DNA of 64,000 bases from Daejeonella sp. H1SJ63 (GTDB taxonomy: Bacteria > Bacteroidota > Bacteroidia > Sphingobacteriales > Sphingobacteriaceae). The position numbers were made by a program, and so were the translations under genes. Positions 12,877 to 60,631 of this stretch are shown here, piece by piece. The first letter of the stretch is position 1. Each line of letters starts with the position of its first letter. The DNA is taken from contig NZ_JARKMZ010000007.1 in the NCBI RefSeq assembly GCF_029360775.1, positions 220,779-284,778 on the forward strand, given 5' to 3'. The notes below the pieces were generated by a model. That model was not told where the DNA came from. It ran no database searches and saw nothing but the letters and a program-made list of their open reading frames with translations.

Positions 12877-14316
12877 TTAAACAGGATCAAGCAACTTAAT
12901 GAAATTTTGGGAGAACTTTAATAACTCCGCTTCTTCAAAACGTTTTCCAAGCAATTGCATCCCAACCGGCAAGCCGGCTTTAGTTCTGCCGGCAGGCACT
13001 GAAATGGCAGGAATTCCTGCTAATGATGCCTGTACTGTAAAGATATCAGCCAGATAATTTACTACCGGATCGTCGCTACCCTCGCCAATAGTAAAAGCAG
13101 GGGTTGGAGCAGTTGGCAGCAATATAAAATCGTATTGTTTCAGAATTTCGTTGGTTTTATCACGGATCATACGACGTACCCTCTGCGCTTTGGCATAGTA
13201 GGCATCATAATATCCGGCACTAAGCACAAAGGTACCCAGTACAATCCTTCGTTTCACCTCAGGCCCGAAACCTTCAGATCGTGATGTTTTATAGGTTGAT
13301 TCCAGATCAATAGCCCTCTTGCTCCGATAACCGTAATGAACACCGTCATATCGTGCGAGGTTTGAAGATGCCTCGGCCATAGTCAGGATATAATAGGTTG
13401 GAACTACGTACTCCAGAAGGTCAAAAGATACAGGCTCAAGAGTATGTCCTGCTGATCTGAGTGCCTCTATACTCTTTTCAAATTCCTGCTTCACTTCAGG
13501 ATCGAGCCCCTCTGAATGCAGGGCTTCAGACAGATAGGCAATTTTTTTCTTTGAATCAGGCTGTTCTGCAAGATTAATATGAGGCACAGCTTTTGAAGAA
13601 GCTGTGCTGTCATACTGATCAGAACCGGCAATAATCTCCAGCAGAATCGATGCATCCTCAACACAATTTGTTATCGGCCCAACCTGATCGAAAGAAGATG
13701 CGTATGAAATAATTCCATGTCTTGAAACTCTGCCATAAGTAGGTTTCAAGCCTACAACTCCGCAAAATGAAGCAGGCTGACGAACGGATCCACCGGTATC
13801 TGTACCCAAAGCAGCAAGGCAAAGTCCTGCCTGAACTGCTACTGCTGCACCACCGGATGAGCCTCCCGAAACTTTCGTCTTATCTGCATAATTCTTTACC
13901 GGTCCGTAAAAAGACGACTCGTTGGATGCACCCATTGCAAACTCATCACAGTTCAAACGTCCGATTATGATAGCATCCTCAGCAAGAAGACGTTCAACTA
14001 CAGTTGCCGAAAAGGGAGAAATATAATTTTCCAATATTCTGGAACAGGCAGAAACATGATGGTCTTTATAACAAATGTTATCCTTTATGCCAATGACCAT
14101 ACCGGCCAGTCTGCCGGCAGTTCCTGAATTGATTTTCTGCTGAATGTGCAGCGCTTCGGCACGGGCCTCATCAGCAAAAACCTCCACAAAAGCATTAAGA
14201 TCAGAATTCTGGTCTATACGCTCAAGATAGTGATCCACAATCTCACTTAACGTGATCTTTGGGTCATGCTTTGCTAATGCCGACTGAATTTTGGAAAGAG
14301 AAGATAGACCTTCCAT
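12877..14316 (-). CDS. gatA: Asp-tRNA(Asn)/Glu-tRNA(Gln) amidotransferase subunit A
   Basis: A 479-residue amidase-signature protein. The Ser-cisSer-Lys triad is visible as Lys78 (GIKDNICY), Ser153 (GGSSGGAAV) and Ser177 (DTGGSVRQPA), in the same spacing as characterised GatA. It releases ammonia from glutamine and channels it to GatB for amidation of mischarged Asp-tRNA(Asn) or Glu-tRNA(Gln). GatB and GatC are not in the window, which is common because the subunits are often unlinked in this phylum. A possible promoter (TATTTTAG on the minus strand) lies within 35 nt of the ATG. A generic amidase is possible but the FAMGASNESS motif favours GatA. Confidence 0.94.
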   Translation of the reverse strand: MEGLSSLSKIQSALAKHDPKITLSEIVDHYLERIDQNSDLNAFVEVFADEARAEALHIQQKINSGTAGRLAGMVIGIKDNICYKDHHVSACSRILENYISPFSATVVERLLAEDAIIIGRLNCDEFAMGASNESSFYGPVKNYADKTKVSGGSSGGAAVAVQAGLCLAALGTDTGGSVRQPASFCGVVGLKPTYGRVSRHGIISYASSFDQVGPITNCVEDASILLEIIAGSDQYDSTASSKAVPHINLAEQPDSKKKIAYLSEALHSEGLDPEVKQEFEKSIEALRSAGHTLEPVSFDLLEYVVPTYYILTMAEASSNLARYDGVHYGYRSKRAIDLESTYKTSRSEGFGPEVKRRIVLGTFVLSAGYYDAYYAKAQRVRRMIRDKTNEILKQYDFILLPTAPTPAFTIGEGSDDPVVNYLADIFTVQASLAGIPAISVPAGRTKAGLPVGMQLLGKRFEEAELLKFSQNFIKLLDPV

Positions 14317-42584: not shown

Positions 42585-43749
42585 TATTTAGTAATTAGAT
42601 TTAAGGCTACTAATTGGTTAATTTCTTTCCCATATTGACATCTTGTACTAATACCGTCATTTCGAGTAATAAAATTTAAGAAATTCTGAAGGAGAAAATG
42701 ACATCGCTTTATTTATCGCTGCAGTACGGCTCTCACTTGCCGGTTTTTGAGAATGAGGTCATGGCATCCGCCACGAGGACAATCAGTATCTAAATATTAA
42801 GTAGATTCCGGCCTCCGAGCCGGAATCTACTTATTCCCATAGCAATTCATTGTCATGGCGGACTTGATCCGCCACCTCCCCGCATATTCAAAATTCGTTT
42901 CCCTTTGGTATTGATGTTAGAATTTGGATAGATAGAAAGAATTTGATGGCAAACCTGGGAGATGTCTTAATCAAAAACAAAGGCAATTGAACCGCTTAGC
43001 ATTAGAACTAAACCTGGTGGTAACATCACCGTAATTATAACATGTCATGGGTAAGGAAGAATGAAGAGAAATCTCAGCACTAAAGCCACACCCCGCATCA
43101 ACAGATTTCTCCTCGCTACAGATAATTTTTTAACTGAAGAATTTCATTCGCTCGTTCGACCTGCCTGCGGTAGGCAGGAATGACGATACGGAAAGGACCC
43201 TTCGCCCTGTTTAAAACAAATTGCTTTATTGATAATTTCTACTTTCCTCCTTAGAAGATCCTTCGTCGCCTTCAATATCGTGGTAAATTTAGAAAATCGT
43301 CAGGCTCCTCAGGATGACACAGTGCATCAACGAAATGTGGAAGTTTATTTGTTTGTGTTGAGTATGAGAAAGAGCATTTGAAGCCCCCCCTCTTTGATTC
43401 TCCCGCCGGCGGGAGACATTGGGCGCATAGGCTCTCACACTGGGCCAAATCCTGCTAATTTGCTCATTCTCATACATTGACAAATAGACAAATCATCACA
43501 TCACCTCCTAATCCAACCATATACTCAAAACGCCGATTGAATCACACCCTCATTTGCTAATTTGCTAATTCCCTTCCCCGACAAATTTCACCCCATAGAA
43601 TCATATATAAAATTCAAAATTTAGAATTAATTAAATACCTTTACACAGTCATGTTTCGGCACATTCCATTAAAAATTCATGAATTATCCAAACGGTATTT
43701 GTTTGGAGCATTCTGATAAATTGTTAGTGTATTATACCTGATCAACTGA
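42585..43749. repeat. 1.17-kb repeat-rich gap without genes
   Basis: Contents in order: a GTCATTT...AAATGAC element (42657-42707); a perfect 12-bp-arm hairpin GTAGATTCCGGC/GCCGGAATCTAC (42801-42830); a GTCAT plus TGGCGGA/TCCGCCA hairpin (42852-42874); a GCCTGCGGTAGGC-type hairpin ending AATGACG (about 43155-43187); a roughly 155-bp element (43197-43350) also found at 57728-57877; a 16-bp perfect palindrome CTCCCGCCGGCGGGAG (43400-43415); and the GACAAATAGACAAATC phrase (43453-43500). No coding signal is credible here. Confidence 0.75.
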
Positions 43750-51956: not shown

Positions 51957-52883
51957 TTACTTCCACTTCCCTCTAAAAAACATCCTTAGTGCAATTTTCT
52001 TTTCCAGATAAGATTTCCCTTTTAGTTTCAAAAAGCGTTTAAAAAGTTCATCTTGTTCCTTGCTTAGTTTATCCTGAAAGACTTGATAGAACTCAGAAGC
52101 AAAACTAATCTGATCTTCAAAAAGATCATTCTTCTTAAAGGAATGGACAATCTCAGAAAATAGTCGCGTAAACCTTCCTTTCCTCTTGAAATCACCGACG
52201 TCGGTTGCATTATTTCTGTGACTCCGGTAATAGATCTGAGGGTCGGGTACTATTTCTGCCTTGCCAAAAGTATACGCTATCATCGACATCCAGGTATCGT
52301 GATTCAATGTACCATTTTCAGGTATAGTTGAAAAATAAGTCCTCATAGCAGGATTCATCAGCATGGTACAGCCATTGACAAAGCAACCAAAAAACAGCGT
52401 TCCCAGACAATAATGATATCCACCCTGACCCAGTTCGTCGCGGAAAGAGTTGTTAATGATATTTTTATCCTGATCAACCAGAATAAGATCTGAATACACC
52501 ATTACAGGATGTTCCGCATCATCTATCTTTTGCAGATATTCGGCGGCCAACTCTAATTTTGATGGAAGCCATACATCGTCCTGATCTGAAAGTGCGATAT
52601 AATTTGCCGGAGCACAAAGTGAAACTGCCTTCTTAAAATTCCCGATAAAACCCAGCCTGTTTTCATTTACATAATAACTGAGCAGCCCACCACGACAGTA
52701 CCTTTCAAGAATTTCTATGGTTCCGTCAGTAGATTGATCATCACAAACAATAATTTCAACAGGCTTCAGCGTTTGAGAGAGAATTGAATCTAACTGCTCT
52801 TCCAAATACTTTTCACCATTGTATGTGGCCATGGCAACAGATATTGAAGGATATTCAGAGATTCTCTGTTCAGTTTTAATCAT
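51957..52883 (-). CDS. Glycosyltransferase family 2
   Basis: A 308-residue GT-A enzyme. The opening is SVAMATYNGEKYLEEQLDSIL with IIVCDDQSTDGT. The donor/metal region is ALSDQDDVWLPSKL (DxD-like). The acceptor-side NHDTWMSMIAYTFG is typical of rhamnosyltransferase-like GT2 proteins. It is opposite in strand to its neighbours and bordered by repeats on both sides, so it may be an independently acquired cassette. No promoter box is obvious upstream. The sugar is unknown. Confidence 0.9.
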   Translation of the reverse strand: MIKTEQRISEYPSISVAMATYNGEKYLEEQLDSILSQTLKPVEIIVCDDQSTDGTIEILERYCRGGLLSYYVNENRLGFIGNFKKAVSLCAPANYIALSDQDDVWLPSKLELAAEYLQKIDDAEHPVMVYSDLILVDQDKNIINNSFRDELGQGGYHYCLGTLFFGCFVNGCTMLMNPAMRTYFSTIPENGTLNHDTWMSMIAYTFGKAEIVPDPQIYYRSHRNNATDVGDFKRKGRFTRLFSEIVHSFKKNDLFEDQISFASEFYQVFQDKLSKEQDELFKRFLKLKGKSYLEKKIALRMFFRGKWK

Positions 52884-53018
52884 TCTTCTGAAATATTAAG
52901 GTGCTGGAGCCGGCATACAGCCGTTGACATTAACCCAACTAAATTAAGAAATTAAATATAGATTGCTGTTCCCGACTCCTCTTGTCATAGTTGTTACTGA
53001 AATGCTACCAGCCGGAGT

Positions 53019-53709
53019 TGTCATCCCTGCCTGCCGGTAGACCAGGCTGAACAGAGTGAAGGATCTTCGTATTTTGAATCGATATCTGTTCTTAAACAAG
53101 GAAGTTCCCTCTGCTGCTAAAGGGCAGCATTCGGGATGACACTACCTTTGATGTGATTTTTATTTAAGCTGCAAGTTTGATGTCATCCTGAACAAAGAGA
53201 AGGATCTTCGTATTTTGAATCGATATCTGTTCTTAAACAAGGAAGTTCCCTCTGCTGCTAAAGGGCAGCAGAGGGATGACACTACCTTTGATGTGATTTT
53301 TATTTAAGCTGCAAGTTTGATGTCATCCTGAACAAAGAGAAGGATCTTCGTATTCTGAATCGATATCTTTTCTTAAACAAGGAAGTTCCCTCTGCTGCTG
53401 AAGGGCAGCATTCGGGATGACACTACCTTTGATGTGATTTTTATTTAAGCTGCAAGTTTGATGTCATCCTGAACAAAGAGAAGGATCTTCGTATTCTGAA
53501 TCGATATCTGTTCTTAAACAAGGAAGTTCCCTCTGCTGTTGAAGGACAGCATTCGGGATGACAAACTCTTGATTTGATTTTAATTTAAGCTGCAAATTTG
53601 ATGTCATCCTGAACAAAGAGAAGGATCTTCGTATTCTGAATCGATATCTTTTCTCAAACAATGAAGTTCCCTCTGCTGTTGAAGGACAGCATTCGGGATG
53701 ACACTACAT
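53019..53709. repeat. Tandem array of about 140-bp palindromic units, left part
   Basis: Units begin TGTCATCCTGAA at 53181, 53321, 53462 and 53602 (spacing 140, 141, 140), with a degenerate first unit near 53019. Each has a roughly 101-nt body ending GGGATGACA, so its ends are inverted repeats, then a linker of about 39 nt (CTACCTTTGATGTGATTT...). Bodies contain AAGGATCTTCGTATT and GGAAGTTCCCTCTGCTG. Identity between units is very high. The right end runs into the GIY-YIG gene stop. Confidence 0.88.
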
Positions 53710-54003
53710 TCATTTGAATATTATTGTATGCCAGTTTGGGTTCGTTCTGACAATCAAGATTTCCTTCTTAGATCTTCTCCAACCTTTAATTTCTTTTTCC
53801 CTCATGATTGCTTCGTTAATATCAGAGAAACATTCAAACCAGATGAGATTATAACAAAAATATCGCCCGGCAAAAGAGGCCTTTTTCCCTTTGTTTTCAT
53901 AATGCTCAGAAAGTCTTCTTTCAATATCATTTGTTACCCCGATATACAGTACTGTTTTGTCAGGATTAGTAGTTATATAAACATAATACTCATAATTCCA
54001 CAT
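53710..54003 (-). CDS. Small GIY-YIG nuclease domain protein inside the repeat array
   Basis: A 97-residue single-domain protein. The catalytic motifs are YYVYITT and LYIGVT (the GIY-YIG pair, about 6-23), NDIERRL with the Arg, and REKEIKGWRRSKK with the Glu metal ligand near residue 70. This is the stand-alone UPF0213/YhbQ-like type that is frequent in Bacteroidota. Its stop lies 9 nt beyond the GGGATGACA end of one repeat unit, and its upstream side meets a degenerate unit, so it replaces a linker of the array. No promoter box is clear. A role in repeat spread is a hypothesis discussed in the findings. Confidence 0.88.
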   Translation of the reverse strand: MWNYEYYVYITTNPDKTVLYIGVTNDIERRLSEHYENKGKKASFAGRYFCYNLIWFECFSDINEAIMREKEIKGWRRSKKEILIVRTNPNWHTIIFK

Positions 54004-54106
54004 AAAATAAAATTATTCAATATGGTTAGTAAAAATTGGAGATTCGTTTTTGTGGTAGCTATAATTGAGAAAAAGGTATTACCCTGATTAGCCTTATAAT
54101 TACACT

Positions 54107-54653
54107 TTTCGGACTGCCGTCCTGAACAAATTGTAGAATCTGCAATTTTTTGCAAGGATACCTATCTTTTAATAAGGAAGTTCCCTCTGTTGTAGAAGGA
54201 CAGCATTCGGGATGACACTTATCTTAATATGATTTGATTTTTATTTAAGCAGTATATTTTCTGTCATCCTGAACAGAGTGAAGGATCTTCGTGCTCTGAA
54301 GTGATATCTATTCTCAAACAATGAAGTTCCCTCTGCTGTTGAAGGACAGCATTCGGGATGACAAACTCTTGATTTGATTTTTATTTAAGCTGCAAGTTTG
54401 ATGTCATCCTGAACAAAGAGAAAGATCTTCGTATTCTGAATCGATATCTGTTCTTAAACAAGGAAGTTCCCTCTGCTGTTGAAGGACAGCATTCGGGATG
54501 ACACTACCTTTGATGTGATTTTTATTTAAGCTGCAAGTTTGATGTCATCCTGAACAAAGAGAAAGATCTTCGTATTCTGAATCGATATCTGTTCTTAAAC
54601 AAGGAAGTTCCCTCTGCTGCTGAAGGCCAGCCTTCGGGATGACAAACTCTTAA
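54107..54653. repeat. Tandem array of about 140-bp palindromic units, right part
   Basis: Further units begin at 54262, 54402 and 54543 (spacing 140 and 141), preceded by a degenerate unit near 54112 (CCGTCCTGAACAAATTG). The last unit ends GGGATGACAAACTC. From 54654 to 54832 there is no supported gene, only AT-rich sequence before the next start. Confidence 0.85.
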
Positions 54654-54832
54654 TTAGTCAGAAAACAAACCTTCTAATTGAGATATTCTATAACTCTATT
54701 CAAATAATTAAAAGCACTTCTTTTTGAAGCTCCCTTTAAATCACTAATTTTAAAAGAAAATACAGATTTCAGTTTCCCTTTAAATCCAGCTAACGGACAG
54801 GTATCAAATAACAAGCTGCTGTCAACACCTGC

Positions 54833-55993
54833 ATGAAACAAAAACCCACCTTTGTTACCATATTCACAGATACAGAAAATTTCCACCTGGTTAAGGATGT
54901 TGGTCAGCTGCCGTATTTCATGTACAAAACAGAAGGGTATGATGCCGGACTGATCACTTATAAGAATAATAAAGAATATCCCTACCTGAACCATGAAGTA
55001 AAGGGATTAAAGCTTTCATTCATCCCTGACAAGGGTCGCTTTCTTTATTTTGAATCCGGAATCTTATCCTATTTATGGTCCAATTCAAAGTCCATCGATG
55101 TCTTAAATCTGTTCCACTTCAAAAAAGATCATTTACTTTATCTGCTTATTTATAAAACACTTAATCCGAAAGGAAAAGCTTATATCAAGCTGGATATGGA
55201 CATCCTTTTCTTCAAGGATTATAATGCTTTCCTATATTCTAAATATTCTTTGAAAAACTACCTTCTGAAAGGTATCACAAAATGGATCTTCAAACTAACA
55301 GATATTTTCTCCGTTGAAACTGAAGAAGCCAGATCCTATCTCCTGGAAGTATATCCCCGACTGGAACAAAAACTAATTTACATACCCAACGGGGTAGATA
55401 ATCTCTATATGGATAAAGCAATAAAATTAAAATCCTGGGAAGAAAAAGAGAATATCATCATCACAGTTGGCAGAATAGGAACCTTTCAAAAAAATACCGA
55501 ATTATTATTGGAAGCCTTAAAAGATGTTGAATTGAAAGACTGGAAGGTATATATTCTGGGTCCTGTTGAAGAATCCTTTCAGGGCTATGTGGACGGGTAT
55601 TTTAAGACTAATCCGCATTTAGTACAGCGCATCATCTTTACCGGTAATATCACCGACCGTAAAGAGCTTTTTGAATGGTATAACAGGGCGAAAATATTCT
55701 GTTTAACATCACGGTTTGAAGGTTTTCCGATCACCTTCCCTGAAGCGCTCTATTTTGGGAATTACATCATCAGCAGTCTGGTTTCAAGTGTAAATCAAAT
55801 TACAAATAATGGGCAATATGGCAGGATAGTAAAATCTTACCCCAGGGAGTTTGCTGCAGCAATCGGGGAAAGTATAGCAGACGACTTCCTGACTGCTGAA
55901 CGATTTGAAGATACCCGCAGATTCTCAAGAATCAATTTCACCTGGCCAAGTATTATTAAAAAACTGTCTGATAAACTGAAGAAAGATGCGTAA
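54833..55993 (+). CDS. Glycosyltransferase family 4
   Basis: A 386-residue GT-B enzyme. The N-terminal half is unusual (PTFVTIFTDTENFHLVKDVG, with KAYIKLDMDILFF near residue 122). The C-terminal half is standard GT4: ENIIITVGRIGTFQKNTELL (about 207-226) and LTSRFEGFPITFPEALYFGNYI (about 294-315) with the E-x7-E motif. It overlaps the flippase gene by 8 nt, pointing to a shared transcript. It is the first gene after the repeat array. Confidence 0.86.
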   Translation: MKQKPTFVTIFTDTENFHLVKDVGQLPYFMYKTEGYDAGLITYKNNKEYPYLNHEVKGLKLSFIPDKGRFLYFESGILSYLWSNSKSIDVLNLFHFKKDHLLYLLIYKTLNPKGKAYIKLDMDILFFKDYNAFLYSKYSLKNYLLKGITKWIFKLTDIFSVETEEARSYLLEVYPRLEQKLIYIPNGVDNLYMDKAIKLKSWEEKENIIITVGRIGTFQKNTELLLEALKDVELKDWKVYILGPVEESFQGYVDGYFKTNPHLVQRIIFTGNITDRKELFEWYNRAKIFCLTSRFEGFPITFPEALYFGNYIISSLVSSVNQITNNGQYGRIVKSYPREFAAAIGESIADDFLTAERFEDTRRFSRINFTWPSIIKKLSDKLKKDA

Positions 55994-57309: not shown

Positions 57310-57880
57310 TTGCTGTAGAGGCACGACGAAGCAATCTCATGAAAAAGGCCAGACCCTGCATCAGCAGATTTCTCTTAGCAGCAATTAAACTTCTCAATAT
57401 ACAATCCTACCCGCTCGTTCGACCTGTCTGCCGGCAGGCAGGAATGACGTGCTTCGCTGGCCTTGCACTGTGAATATTTGATAGAAACAAATTTTGACTA
57501 TGCATTAAGGTGGCGGGTCAAGCCCGCCATGACAGCGAAATGTTTAGGGAATGAGGAGATTCCGGCCTCCGCCGGAATCTCCCCTCTCTCAAAATACCGA
57601 TTGTCATCGTGGCGAAAGCCACGACCCCGTTCTCTTTAATACTAACTTATCATCGTGACATCCCCAAGACCTCATATACCATAATTTAGACCACAATTTT
57701 GTCATCCCTGATGAGGAACGAAGAGGGACCTTCGCACTGTTTAAAACAAATTGCTTTATTGATAATTTCTACCTTCCTCCTGATAAGATCCTTCATCGCC
57801 TTCAATATCGCCGTAAAATCAAAAAATCATTGGCTCCTCAGGATGACACAGTGCATTAACGAAATGTGGAGGTTTGTTTC
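57310..57880. repeat. Repeat-rich gap after the flippase, with direct copies of the 43.1-43.35 kb repeats
   Basis: The 728-bp gap 57216-57943 has no gene. It includes a CTGCATCAGCAGATTTCTC phrase (about 57356) and a CTCGTTCGACCTGTCTGCC hairpin ending AATGACG (about 57414-57450), both shared with 43.1 kb. Further hairpins are TGGCGGG/CCCGCCA (57511-57529), GGAGATTCCGGC/GCCGGAATCTCC (57555-57582), and GTCAT plus CGTGGC-GAAA-GCCACG (57603-57623). A GTCATCC...GGATGAC element of about 155 bp (57701-57856) overlaps the 57728-57877 copy of 43197-43350. Confidence 0.78.
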
Positions 57881-57943
57881 TTAGTCCTGATTAAATTGGC
57901 AAACCCTATCAGGGACATACAAAAATTCTTAATTCTTAATTCC

Positions 57944-60275: not shown

Positions 60276-60631
60276 AGTATTGAGTATTGCGTAATGAGTA
60301 TTGCGTATTGCGATTAAATTGTGCTTCATTTCCCGATATCGGTTTACTATCAAAAAAATACAATTCAGCACAACCCCTGGGCGTCACGCTTGTCCCCTCC
60401 GGAGGGGCCAGGGGGAGGATTTACATTCGACCTCCCCCTCCTTTGCACTTTTCCCTTCGCGCCCCCCTCCAAAGGGGGACAGGAATTCTGCTTCAATTAT
60501 TATTATTCATTTTAAACCCTAAATTCCATCATTCATCATTCACCTCTTTACCACTGATCTGAATAGGAACCTCGTAATTCGTAATTCGTAATTCGTAATT
60601 CGTAATTCGTAATTCTTAATTCTTAATTGAA
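60276..60631. repeat. Gap with C-rich palindromes and a 7-bp microsatellite
   Basis: GAGTATTGCGTAATGAG-type phrases lie at 60280-60310 (also near 23406). A CCCCTCCGGAGGGG palindrome lies at 60394-60407, with the matching TGTCCCC and GGGGGACA ends at 60391 and about 60474-60481. Six perfect CGTAATT units plus two CTTAATT units occupy 60573-60628, ending 3 nt before the stop of the Wzi-like gene. No gene is supported. Confidence 0.8.

Follow-up and report, generated by a model that had tools for sequence, protein, structure and literature searches.

The stretch of DNA that we analyzed, referred to here as the window, comprises 64,000 nt of the genome of Daejeonella sp. H1SJ63, and it holds a small gene for a stand-alone GIY-YIG nuclease inside a tandem array of tagged hairpin repeats, in the intergenic region between two divergent glycosyltransferase genes (Table 1). 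The array spans 53019 to 54644 and contains nine units, five on one side of the nuclease gene and four on the other; as an earlier note on this DNA had counted, seven are clear and two degenerate (u1, with 21 extra nt, and u6). What that note called a palindromic 140-bp unit is better described as an inverted pair of two different hairpin elements, each with a TGTC tag, which is 101 to 103 nt long (123 nt in u1) and has been duplicated together with its linker. The proposed spacing of 140 to 141 bp held from start to start within the clear runs but not between u1 and u2 (162), between u6 and u7 (147), or across the gene (513). Tandem Repeats Finder, applied to the two flanks of the gene, returned a period of 140 with 4.7 copies (score 1154) and a period of 141 with 3.3 copies (score 715), scores that rule out a chance tandem repeat as the origin of the array. 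The gene-bearing insert between u5 and u6 measures 411 nt and the other linkers 38 to 44 nt. Because linkers of 38 to 39 nt were duplicated along with the units, the array, judged from its sequence, probably grew as unit and linker were duplicated in tandem, and not through a series of insertions.

Both halves of a unit share the consensus TGTCAT-CCY-GA-(variable inner stem-loop)-GA-RGG-A(T/A)CT, that is, an interrupted stem followed by a CT or CTT tail. The left half reads TGTCATCCTGAACAAAGAGAAGGATCT, and an example of the right half, on the opposite strand, reads TGTCATCCCGAATGCTGCCCTTCAGCAGCAGAGGGAACT; the base of the stem is AT...AT in the left halves and AT...AA in the right halves. Among the units of the array, a compensatory change is seen in the right inner stem, where the pair is C-G in u1 and u3 and T-A in u4, u5, u7, and u8. 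When folded with standard DNA parameters and compared with shuffled sequences, the right hairpin gave z scores of -2.7 and -3.1 and the whole unit a z score of -4.2. A search of Rfam over 52800 to 54900, up to an E value of 0.1, returned a miRNA model as its sole match (23 bits against a cutoff of 80), and an RNA family was rejected as an identity for the array.

The nuclease is a 97-residue stand-alone protein between two units, as had been reported before; its stop codon lies 6 nt from the end of u5 (53703 versus 53710), not 9 nt. It is a compact GIY-YIG domain with six residues that are invariant in an alignment of 23 sequences, the window protein included (Y9, Y20, G22, R30, H34, and E69), which we take to be the catalytic positions of the GIY-YIG superfamily. 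Its predicted structure is confident (predicted local distance difference test score, 94.9), and among PDB entries the model matched the UPF0213 protein 1zg2 best (E value = 9e-5, the only one below 0.001), followed by Slx1 (E values of 0.07 to 0.2) and UvrC nuclease domains (E values of 0.3 to 2). By simple counting, nonsynonymous divergence (dN) among the window, G001, and G019 genes was 0.10 to 0.15 and synonymous divergence (dS) 1.3 to 1.6 (the two prefixed G labels denote related genomes); for the window gene against its G001 and G019 orthologues, dN was 0.11 and 0.15 and dS 1.6 and 1.5, respectively. Since dN is far below dS, the protein is kept by selection, and the coding sequences indicate that the gene is under purifying selection. 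Homologous genes with in-frame stops were also seen (G017:C211, G009:C45, and G018:C5), so genes of this type decay as well. Public records label members of the family "GIY-YIG nuclease family protein," "excinuclease ABC subunit C," or hypothetical. A defense system was rejected as an identity for the gene because PADLOC gave weak matches only (lowest E value = 0.00088), and a phage origin because the homing-endonuclease profile matches were only weak.

Table 1. Positions of the repeat units, the nuclease gene, and the surrounding intergenic region in the window
Feature	Coordinates	Strand	Remarks
Unit u1	53019..53141		Degenerate; 21 extra nt in left half
Unit u2	53181..53281		Left hairpin half 53181-53207 (+); right half (-), one arm altered
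Unit u3	53321..53422		Tagged hairpins, inverted pair
Unit u4	53462..53563		Tagged hairpins, inverted pair; right half C-G to T-A compensatory versus u3
Unit u5	53602..53703		End 6 nt from nuclease stop codon
GIY-YIG nuclease gene, 97 aa, stand-alone, Ssn-like	53710..54003	-	Open reading frame; PF01541, 65.8 bits
Leader between nuclease start codon and u6, 111 nt	54004..54114	-	Sequence
Unit u6	54115..54217		Left half degenerate
Unit u7	54262..54363		AC-AGA-GT between GA steps of left half
Unit u8	54402..54503		Located by sequence
Unit u9	54543..54644		Array end
Intergenic region, 1949 nt	52884..54832		Between divergent glycosyltransferase genes 51957-52883 (-) and 54833-55993 (+)

We then looked into how far nucleases of this type are accompanied by repeats in 60 related genomes, 48 of which had a nuclease match at an E value of at most 0.001. 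The set used (n = 48, out of 52 rows at 49.7 bits or more) consisted of the window gene and 47 fetched genes; G011:C96 (71% identity, running off its contig), G045:C52, G041:C3, and G039:C4 were left out, and the broken frames in G017, G009:C45, and G018 were kept in the flank tests and excluded from the tree. As a control, we used 15 hand-picked places from the same match table that carry another GIY-YIG clade (about 23 to 29% identity). For the flank test, the 400 bp on one side of a gene were compared with the 400 bp on the other and the best alignment was scored, with 176 other open reading frames (ORFs) of the same loci as background. Flank-to-flank similarity exceeded the 95% background point in 45 of the 48 loci and the 99% point in 36, against 2 and 0 of the 15 control loci. 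A tagged hairpin, defined here as a GTC-AT hairpin with a perfect 5-nt stem within 400 bp of the gene, accompanied 32 of the 48 homologous genes, compared with 28 of 258 background positions and 1 of the 15 control genes. The closest full-length homologues, in G001, G019, G031, and G047 (83, 77, 63, and 60% identity), have, like the window gene, CCY-type TGTCATCC units around them; in G031 these form an array comparable to that of the window.

Several other GIY-YIG loci in these genomes are worth recording. In G037, a nuclease gene is tandemly duplicated with its own repeats at a period of 599 bp (L042; G037:C5:13127-13396 and 13726-13995). The host genome has two more window-type nucleases near contig ends (L002/L059 at the end of G000:C54 and L004/L052 at the start of G000:C2), and their flanks hold differing palindromes (GATTCCGGC... 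and GATTCCAGC...), as if there were one repeat per nuclease. A further host-genome GIY-YIG gene lies beside tRNA-Leu genes (L003; G000:C5, 1-3201), with a 34-nt tRNA-end repeat on both sides; the adjoining ORF resembles, by eye, a Y1 transposase of the type called RAYT (repetitive extragenic palindromic [REP]-associated tyrosine transposase), with inverted palindromes of its own.

To extend the comparison across phyla, a named genome collection of 84,980 species was scanned with one peptide pattern drawn from the protein profile, which gave at least 561 confirmed relatives. The best 80 of these loci were used together with three plasmid loci (n = 83; n = 82 for the similarity score, one flank being too short), and no identical gene was shared with the set from the related genomes. 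A tagged hairpin lay within 400 bp of 68 of the 83 homologues; the corresponding count for background positions of these loci was 51 of 520. Flank similarity exceeded the 95% background in 69 of 82 loci and the 99% background, which itself holds strong repeats, in 29 of 82. By record name, the repeat-positive loci came from Bacteroidota, Balneola, Clostridia, Alpha- and Gammaproteobacteria, Verrucomicrobiia, Kiritimatiellae, Chloroflexi, Fibrobacter, Melainabacteria, Nitrospina, Desulfobulbaceae, and others; several alphaproteobacterial loci had CCA-type tails. Furthermore, counting only DNA outside ORFs in the 80 loci, hairpin density was 7.25 per kb in the first 100 bp from the gene, 7.35 per kb in the next 100 bp, 3.39 per kb at 500 to 1000 bp, and 0.43 to 0.85 per kb past 1 kb. 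Two homologues had unusual neighbors: one lies between the restriction enzyme MmeI and the DISARM gene drmA on a Planktothrix plasmid (L213), and the other between sufB and sufC in Azospirillum (L219).

A homologue in Neisseria gonorrhoeae (36% identity over 92% of the query, E value = 1e-8) is surrounded by copies of the repeat dRS3 (ATTCCCN8GGGAAT): the 3.3-kb stretch that includes it holds 16 matches, ten before the gene and six after it, and all eight hairpins listed beside it are CGTC tagged. The enrichment of repeats near homologous genes that the earlier note had envisaged was strongly positive in two separately drawn sets, with the other GIY-YIG clade near background, and the observation of the gene within its array is real and far above chance.

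Next, we evaluated whether the stems are conserved by sequence or by pairing. Elements were retrieved with a pattern whose only fixed parts were the tag, the GA steps, and the closing A(T/A)C, and 352 were found in 77 loci. Of 143 distinct combinations counted per locus, 71% had exactly complementary outer triplets (shuffled mean, 9%; maximum, 17%; 2000 shuffles), and the inner dinucleotides were complementary in 47% of 190 (shuffled mean, 13%; maximum, 22%). The outer triplet took the forms TTC, CCT, TCC, GCT, TCT, CCC, GTC, and others. These results indicate that the hairpin stem is conserved as a structure, since the triplet sequence varies while the pairing holds. Moreover, the core triplet and the nuclease were correlated: mapped onto the nuclease tree (70 labeled of 128 proteins), the core triplet changed 30 times, compared with 42.5 times in 200 shuffles (minimum, 38), and nearest neighbors from outside the same genus or genome had the same core in 33% of cases versus 19%. 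This correlation fits, loosely, a recognition whose specificity would shift along the tree.

We also compared orthologous sites. The second glycosyltransferase gene of the window was found in nine congeners; the first was beside it in six, and contig ends were close by in three. In the six, the gap between the two genes was 107 to 641 nt, compared with 1949 nt in the window, and the nuclease was absent from all of them. In G002, three tagged hairpins 146 nt apart occupy this site (L209); the gaps of the other five held no tagged hairpin of the pattern used, and G019 had other palindromes there. In G001, the nuclease lies in a peptidase-to-GNAT gap of 812 nt. Both flanking genes are adjacent in 13 other genomes; none of these showed a nuclease at the site, and the gap measured 18 to 396 nt in the eight inspected; a unit closely resembling that of G001 remains in G016 (L189). 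The empty sites anticipated by the earlier note do exist, therefore, and the pattern of presence and absence indicates that the gene and the repeats come and go at fixed intergenic places. In addition, because G002 and G016 keep repeats in the absence of the nuclease, the gene and the array can part company.

Genome-wide counts gave a modest correlation. In the host genome, 13 of the 17 exact pattern matches lie inside the array, which indicates that tandem growth, not dispersal, dominates there. The window-derived pattern covers CCY types only, by design, and the general pattern misses TGC-type cores, which have an extra base (for example, beside the G012 gene), so that its counts are lower bounds. 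At least five repeat copies were present in 20 of 32 genomes with a close nuclease, compared with 9 of 28 without (Fisher P value = 0.023), in a table counted by hand with either pattern, a nuclease match being an E value of at most about 1e-9, and with thresholds chosen after the tables had been seen. "Without" here means without a close match, as examined in seven of the nine (G042 and G051 were left out): G002, G007, G021, and G035 had large GIY-YIG proteins only, and G008, G016, and G048 had other small frames. The extreme case is G035, with 130 matches to the CCY-type TGTCATCCTGAGC..GTCGAAGGATCT hairpin pattern, in which several are close inverted pairs and some elements are counted twice (at least 5 of 100 listed). 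As to whether repeats also occur in genomes lacking the nuclease, a question on which the earlier proposal turned, the answer was thus mixed: multiple copies are commoner with the nuclease, and G035 has them in abundance. Either the repeats persist after loss of the nuclease or they are spread by something else. Among known systems, REPINs (REP doublets forming hairpins) can outlive RAYTs. In G008, where no nuclease closely related to that of the window is present, two TGTCATCC hairpins are found about 2.4 kb from a small GIY-YIG frame of another kind (G008:C43, 1141-1341 and 3760-3932).

Elsewhere in the window, another composite element, with CTCCTCAGGATGACA, is present in two copies 14.5 kb apart that are 87% alike (43188-43364 and 57718-57893); the second starts near a TGTCATCCC tag, and no nuclease was noticed beside either. 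Heptanucleotide tandem repeats were also seen (GTATTGC, 5.1 copies at 60277-60312; TCGTAAT, 8.1 copies at 60572-60628).

Taken together, we consider it likely that the small GIY-YIG gene of the window lies among the very repeats that its nuclease targets, and that the locus is the Bacteroidota equivalent of the Neisseria gene within its dRS3 array. The tagged hairpins around the gene would be its cognate targets, and their recognition by the nuclease is probable. We infer that the protein would recognize the tagged hairpin as single-stranded DNA and cut at the hairpin, which might become accessible through extrusion, on the template of the lagging strand, or in DNA acquired by transformation, and that a further copy of the repeat might then serve to repair the free end. 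Within an array, slippage or unequal repair would lead to tandem growth of unit plus linker and to homogenization, and repair between arrays on different DNA molecules could move the gene from one to another or delete it. Joining of DNA is not expected of the nuclease itself, so copying of any kind would depend on repair by the host. The earlier note had the nuclease recognize the unit ends and drive amplification or spread of the repeats: the coupling of this GIY-YIG type to the repeats stood, and the driving role was not supported as stated; duplication of the plain linker along with the unit points to ordinary tandem duplication. That the nuclease mobilizes the repeats is possible, and we would put it no higher than a tentative suggestion.

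Several results weigh against a nuclease acting on its own repeats. By the strict definition, a tagged hairpin was missing from 16 of the 48 loci in the related genomes and from 15 of the 83 loci across phyla; among 11 extra loci from the plasmid collection (14 of 34 matching records fetched), it was present in 7, and we count the shortfall here. The background regions of the flank test in the relatives were mostly coding, and restriction to non-ORF DNA reduces the excess to about 10-fold, not 36-fold. The left hairpin of the window units was no more stable than shuffled sequences under standard DNA parameters (z scores of -0.2 and 0.1), perhaps because these parameters do not credit the GA/GA steps. 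The covariation test covers elements with GA steps only and is silent on repeats that lack them, such as dRS3. Two Mucilaginibacter proteins (L104 and L106), 68 and 66% identical to the window protein, go with TTY and CTY cores, not CCY. Dispersal in the host genome is slight, with only 4 of the 17 exact matches outside the array. Genome-wide, repeats and nuclease correlate modestly, and the search for GIY-YIG genes in G035 gave only two frames, of 609 and 460 aa, and no stand-alone gene. Finally, orthologous sites in congeners lack the gene, and two of them (G002 and G016) keep repeats without it.

In a broader explanation, the C/TGTC-tagged REP superfamily would, in many phyla, have its missing dedicated enzymes in GIY-YIG nucleases of the window type. 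The gene and its inverted hairpin pairs would form a mobile unit resembling a REPtron, which would spread by the cutting of exposed single-stranded hairpins and by copying through host repair (repeat homing), and its specificity would shift by compensated stem changes matched in the nuclease. Taken jointly, these propositions are possible but doubtful. A rather unlikely alternative, which shares the step of target recognition with the explanation that we consider likely and differs from it in purpose, is genome defense or control of DNA uptake: the repeats would be genomic marks, the nuclease would trim or admit incoming single-stranded DNA bearing them, and amplification would be a by-product. 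The homologous gene inside the Neisseria dRS3 array, the influence on transformation reported there for Ssn and NTS, and the purifying selection on the protein agree with such a role, whereas the absence of the gene from its site in six congeners would be odd for a core uptake function (some have such genes elsewhere), and the PADLOC matches are weak.

Passive hitch-hiking is less probable still, and we regard it as improbable. Ordinary REP-type elements, moved by another agent, would gather in permissive intergenic DNA, where small dispensable genes are also tolerated. This would account for the abundance of repeats in G035 and their presence in other genomes without a close nuclease, for the modest difference between 20 of 32 and 9 of 28 genomes, and for the repeats without the gene at the window site in G002. 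However, it does not lead one to expect that hairpin density outside ORFs drops about 10-fold away from the gene in the 80 loci, that the other small GIY-YIG clade stays near background (0/15 at the 99% point, 2/15 at the 95% point, and 1/15 for hairpins), or that nuclease sequence and repeat core covary, if loosely. A feature acting in RNA, with the array serving as terminators or mRNA-stabilizing hairpins of the glycosyltransferase cluster and unrelated to the nuclease, is very improbable: the elements do form hairpins between genes, and REPs have been proposed to act in RNA (PMC3733652), but the same type of nuclease goes with such hairpins beside different neighbors in other genomes, five of six congeners have the orthologous glycosyltransferase pair and no array between its genes, and the sole Rfam match fell far below its cutoff.

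The tie between tagged repeats in many phyla and one small nuclease family offers a testable enzyme for widespread intergenic repeats; the target of a nuclease could be predicted from the flanks of its own gene, and natural specificity variants are available. The window locus lends itself well as a model, combining array growth, compensatory change within the array, and empty sites in congeners.

Comparison with known systems sets the locus apart from homing endonucleases of the I-TevI type. It shares with them the nuclease domain, by the weak profile matches, but a protein of 97 aa has no room for a separate DNA-binding domain, the gene is not in an intron, and the presumed targets flank the gene rather than being split by it, the gene lying between whole u5 and u6 units (u6 degenerate). 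The analogy to REP sequences flanking RAYT genes, drawn in the earlier note, was supported: as in REPIN/RAYT systems (REPtrons), there are short hairpins in inverted pairs, repeats flanking a gene, and empty sites. In contrast, the protein between the repeats has a GIY-YIG fold and is no HUH Y1 transposase, and the tag is TGTC, not GTAG. The locus is REPtron-like in layout and is not a RAYT.

The repeats themselves resemble the CGTC REPs. A 2013 survey of these repeats places dRS3 in the CGTC REP superfamily, states that CGTC REPs "apparently lack a dedicated transposase," and gives families 1 to 4 a stem of 8 to 9 bp, a loop of 4 to 5 nt, and a CCA tail (Di Nocera, De Gregorio and Rocco 2013, PMC3733652). 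The window repeats share the C/TGTC tag at one end, the AT at the base of the left-half stem, and the inverted dimers, but they differ from families 1 to 4 in an interrupted stem, in a CT or CTT tail instead of CCA, in the inner GA/GA step, and in a longer, variable inner stem; and where no dedicated transposase is reported for CGTC REPs, the window repeats are associated with a GIY-YIG gene. The literature searched, with a partial coverage that is no proof of absence, yielded no paper linking GIY-YIG genes to CGTC REPs, and a search of PMC12306157 found neither GIY-YIG nor nuclease. The main novelty, the breadth of the link between the nuclease and C/TGTC-tagged REPs, may already be in print.

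The closest parallel is the Ssn system of Neisseria, in which both the protein and the setting of the gene correspond. A 2025 paper in Nature Communications reportedly made a Neisseria meningitidis enzyme the founder of Ssn, a family of single-strand-specific GIY-YIG nucleases that are said to recognize the NTS repeat and to affect transformation; the N. gonorrhoeae homologue described above is presumably the published ssn. In both cases the protein is small and stand-alone, and the N. gonorrhoeae gene has around it an array of inverted, CGTC-tagged hairpins that share with the window repeats the combination of tag and hairpin. The window differs in its core stem, which is CCY with conserved GA/GA steps and not the dRS3 core, and in its tandem 140-bp amplification (inverted pair plus linker) with few dispersed copies; cleavage is predicted. 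On these likenesses, the window locus is a probable Bacteroidota member of the Ssn-like kind, with predicted cleavage of the hairpins among which its gene lies.

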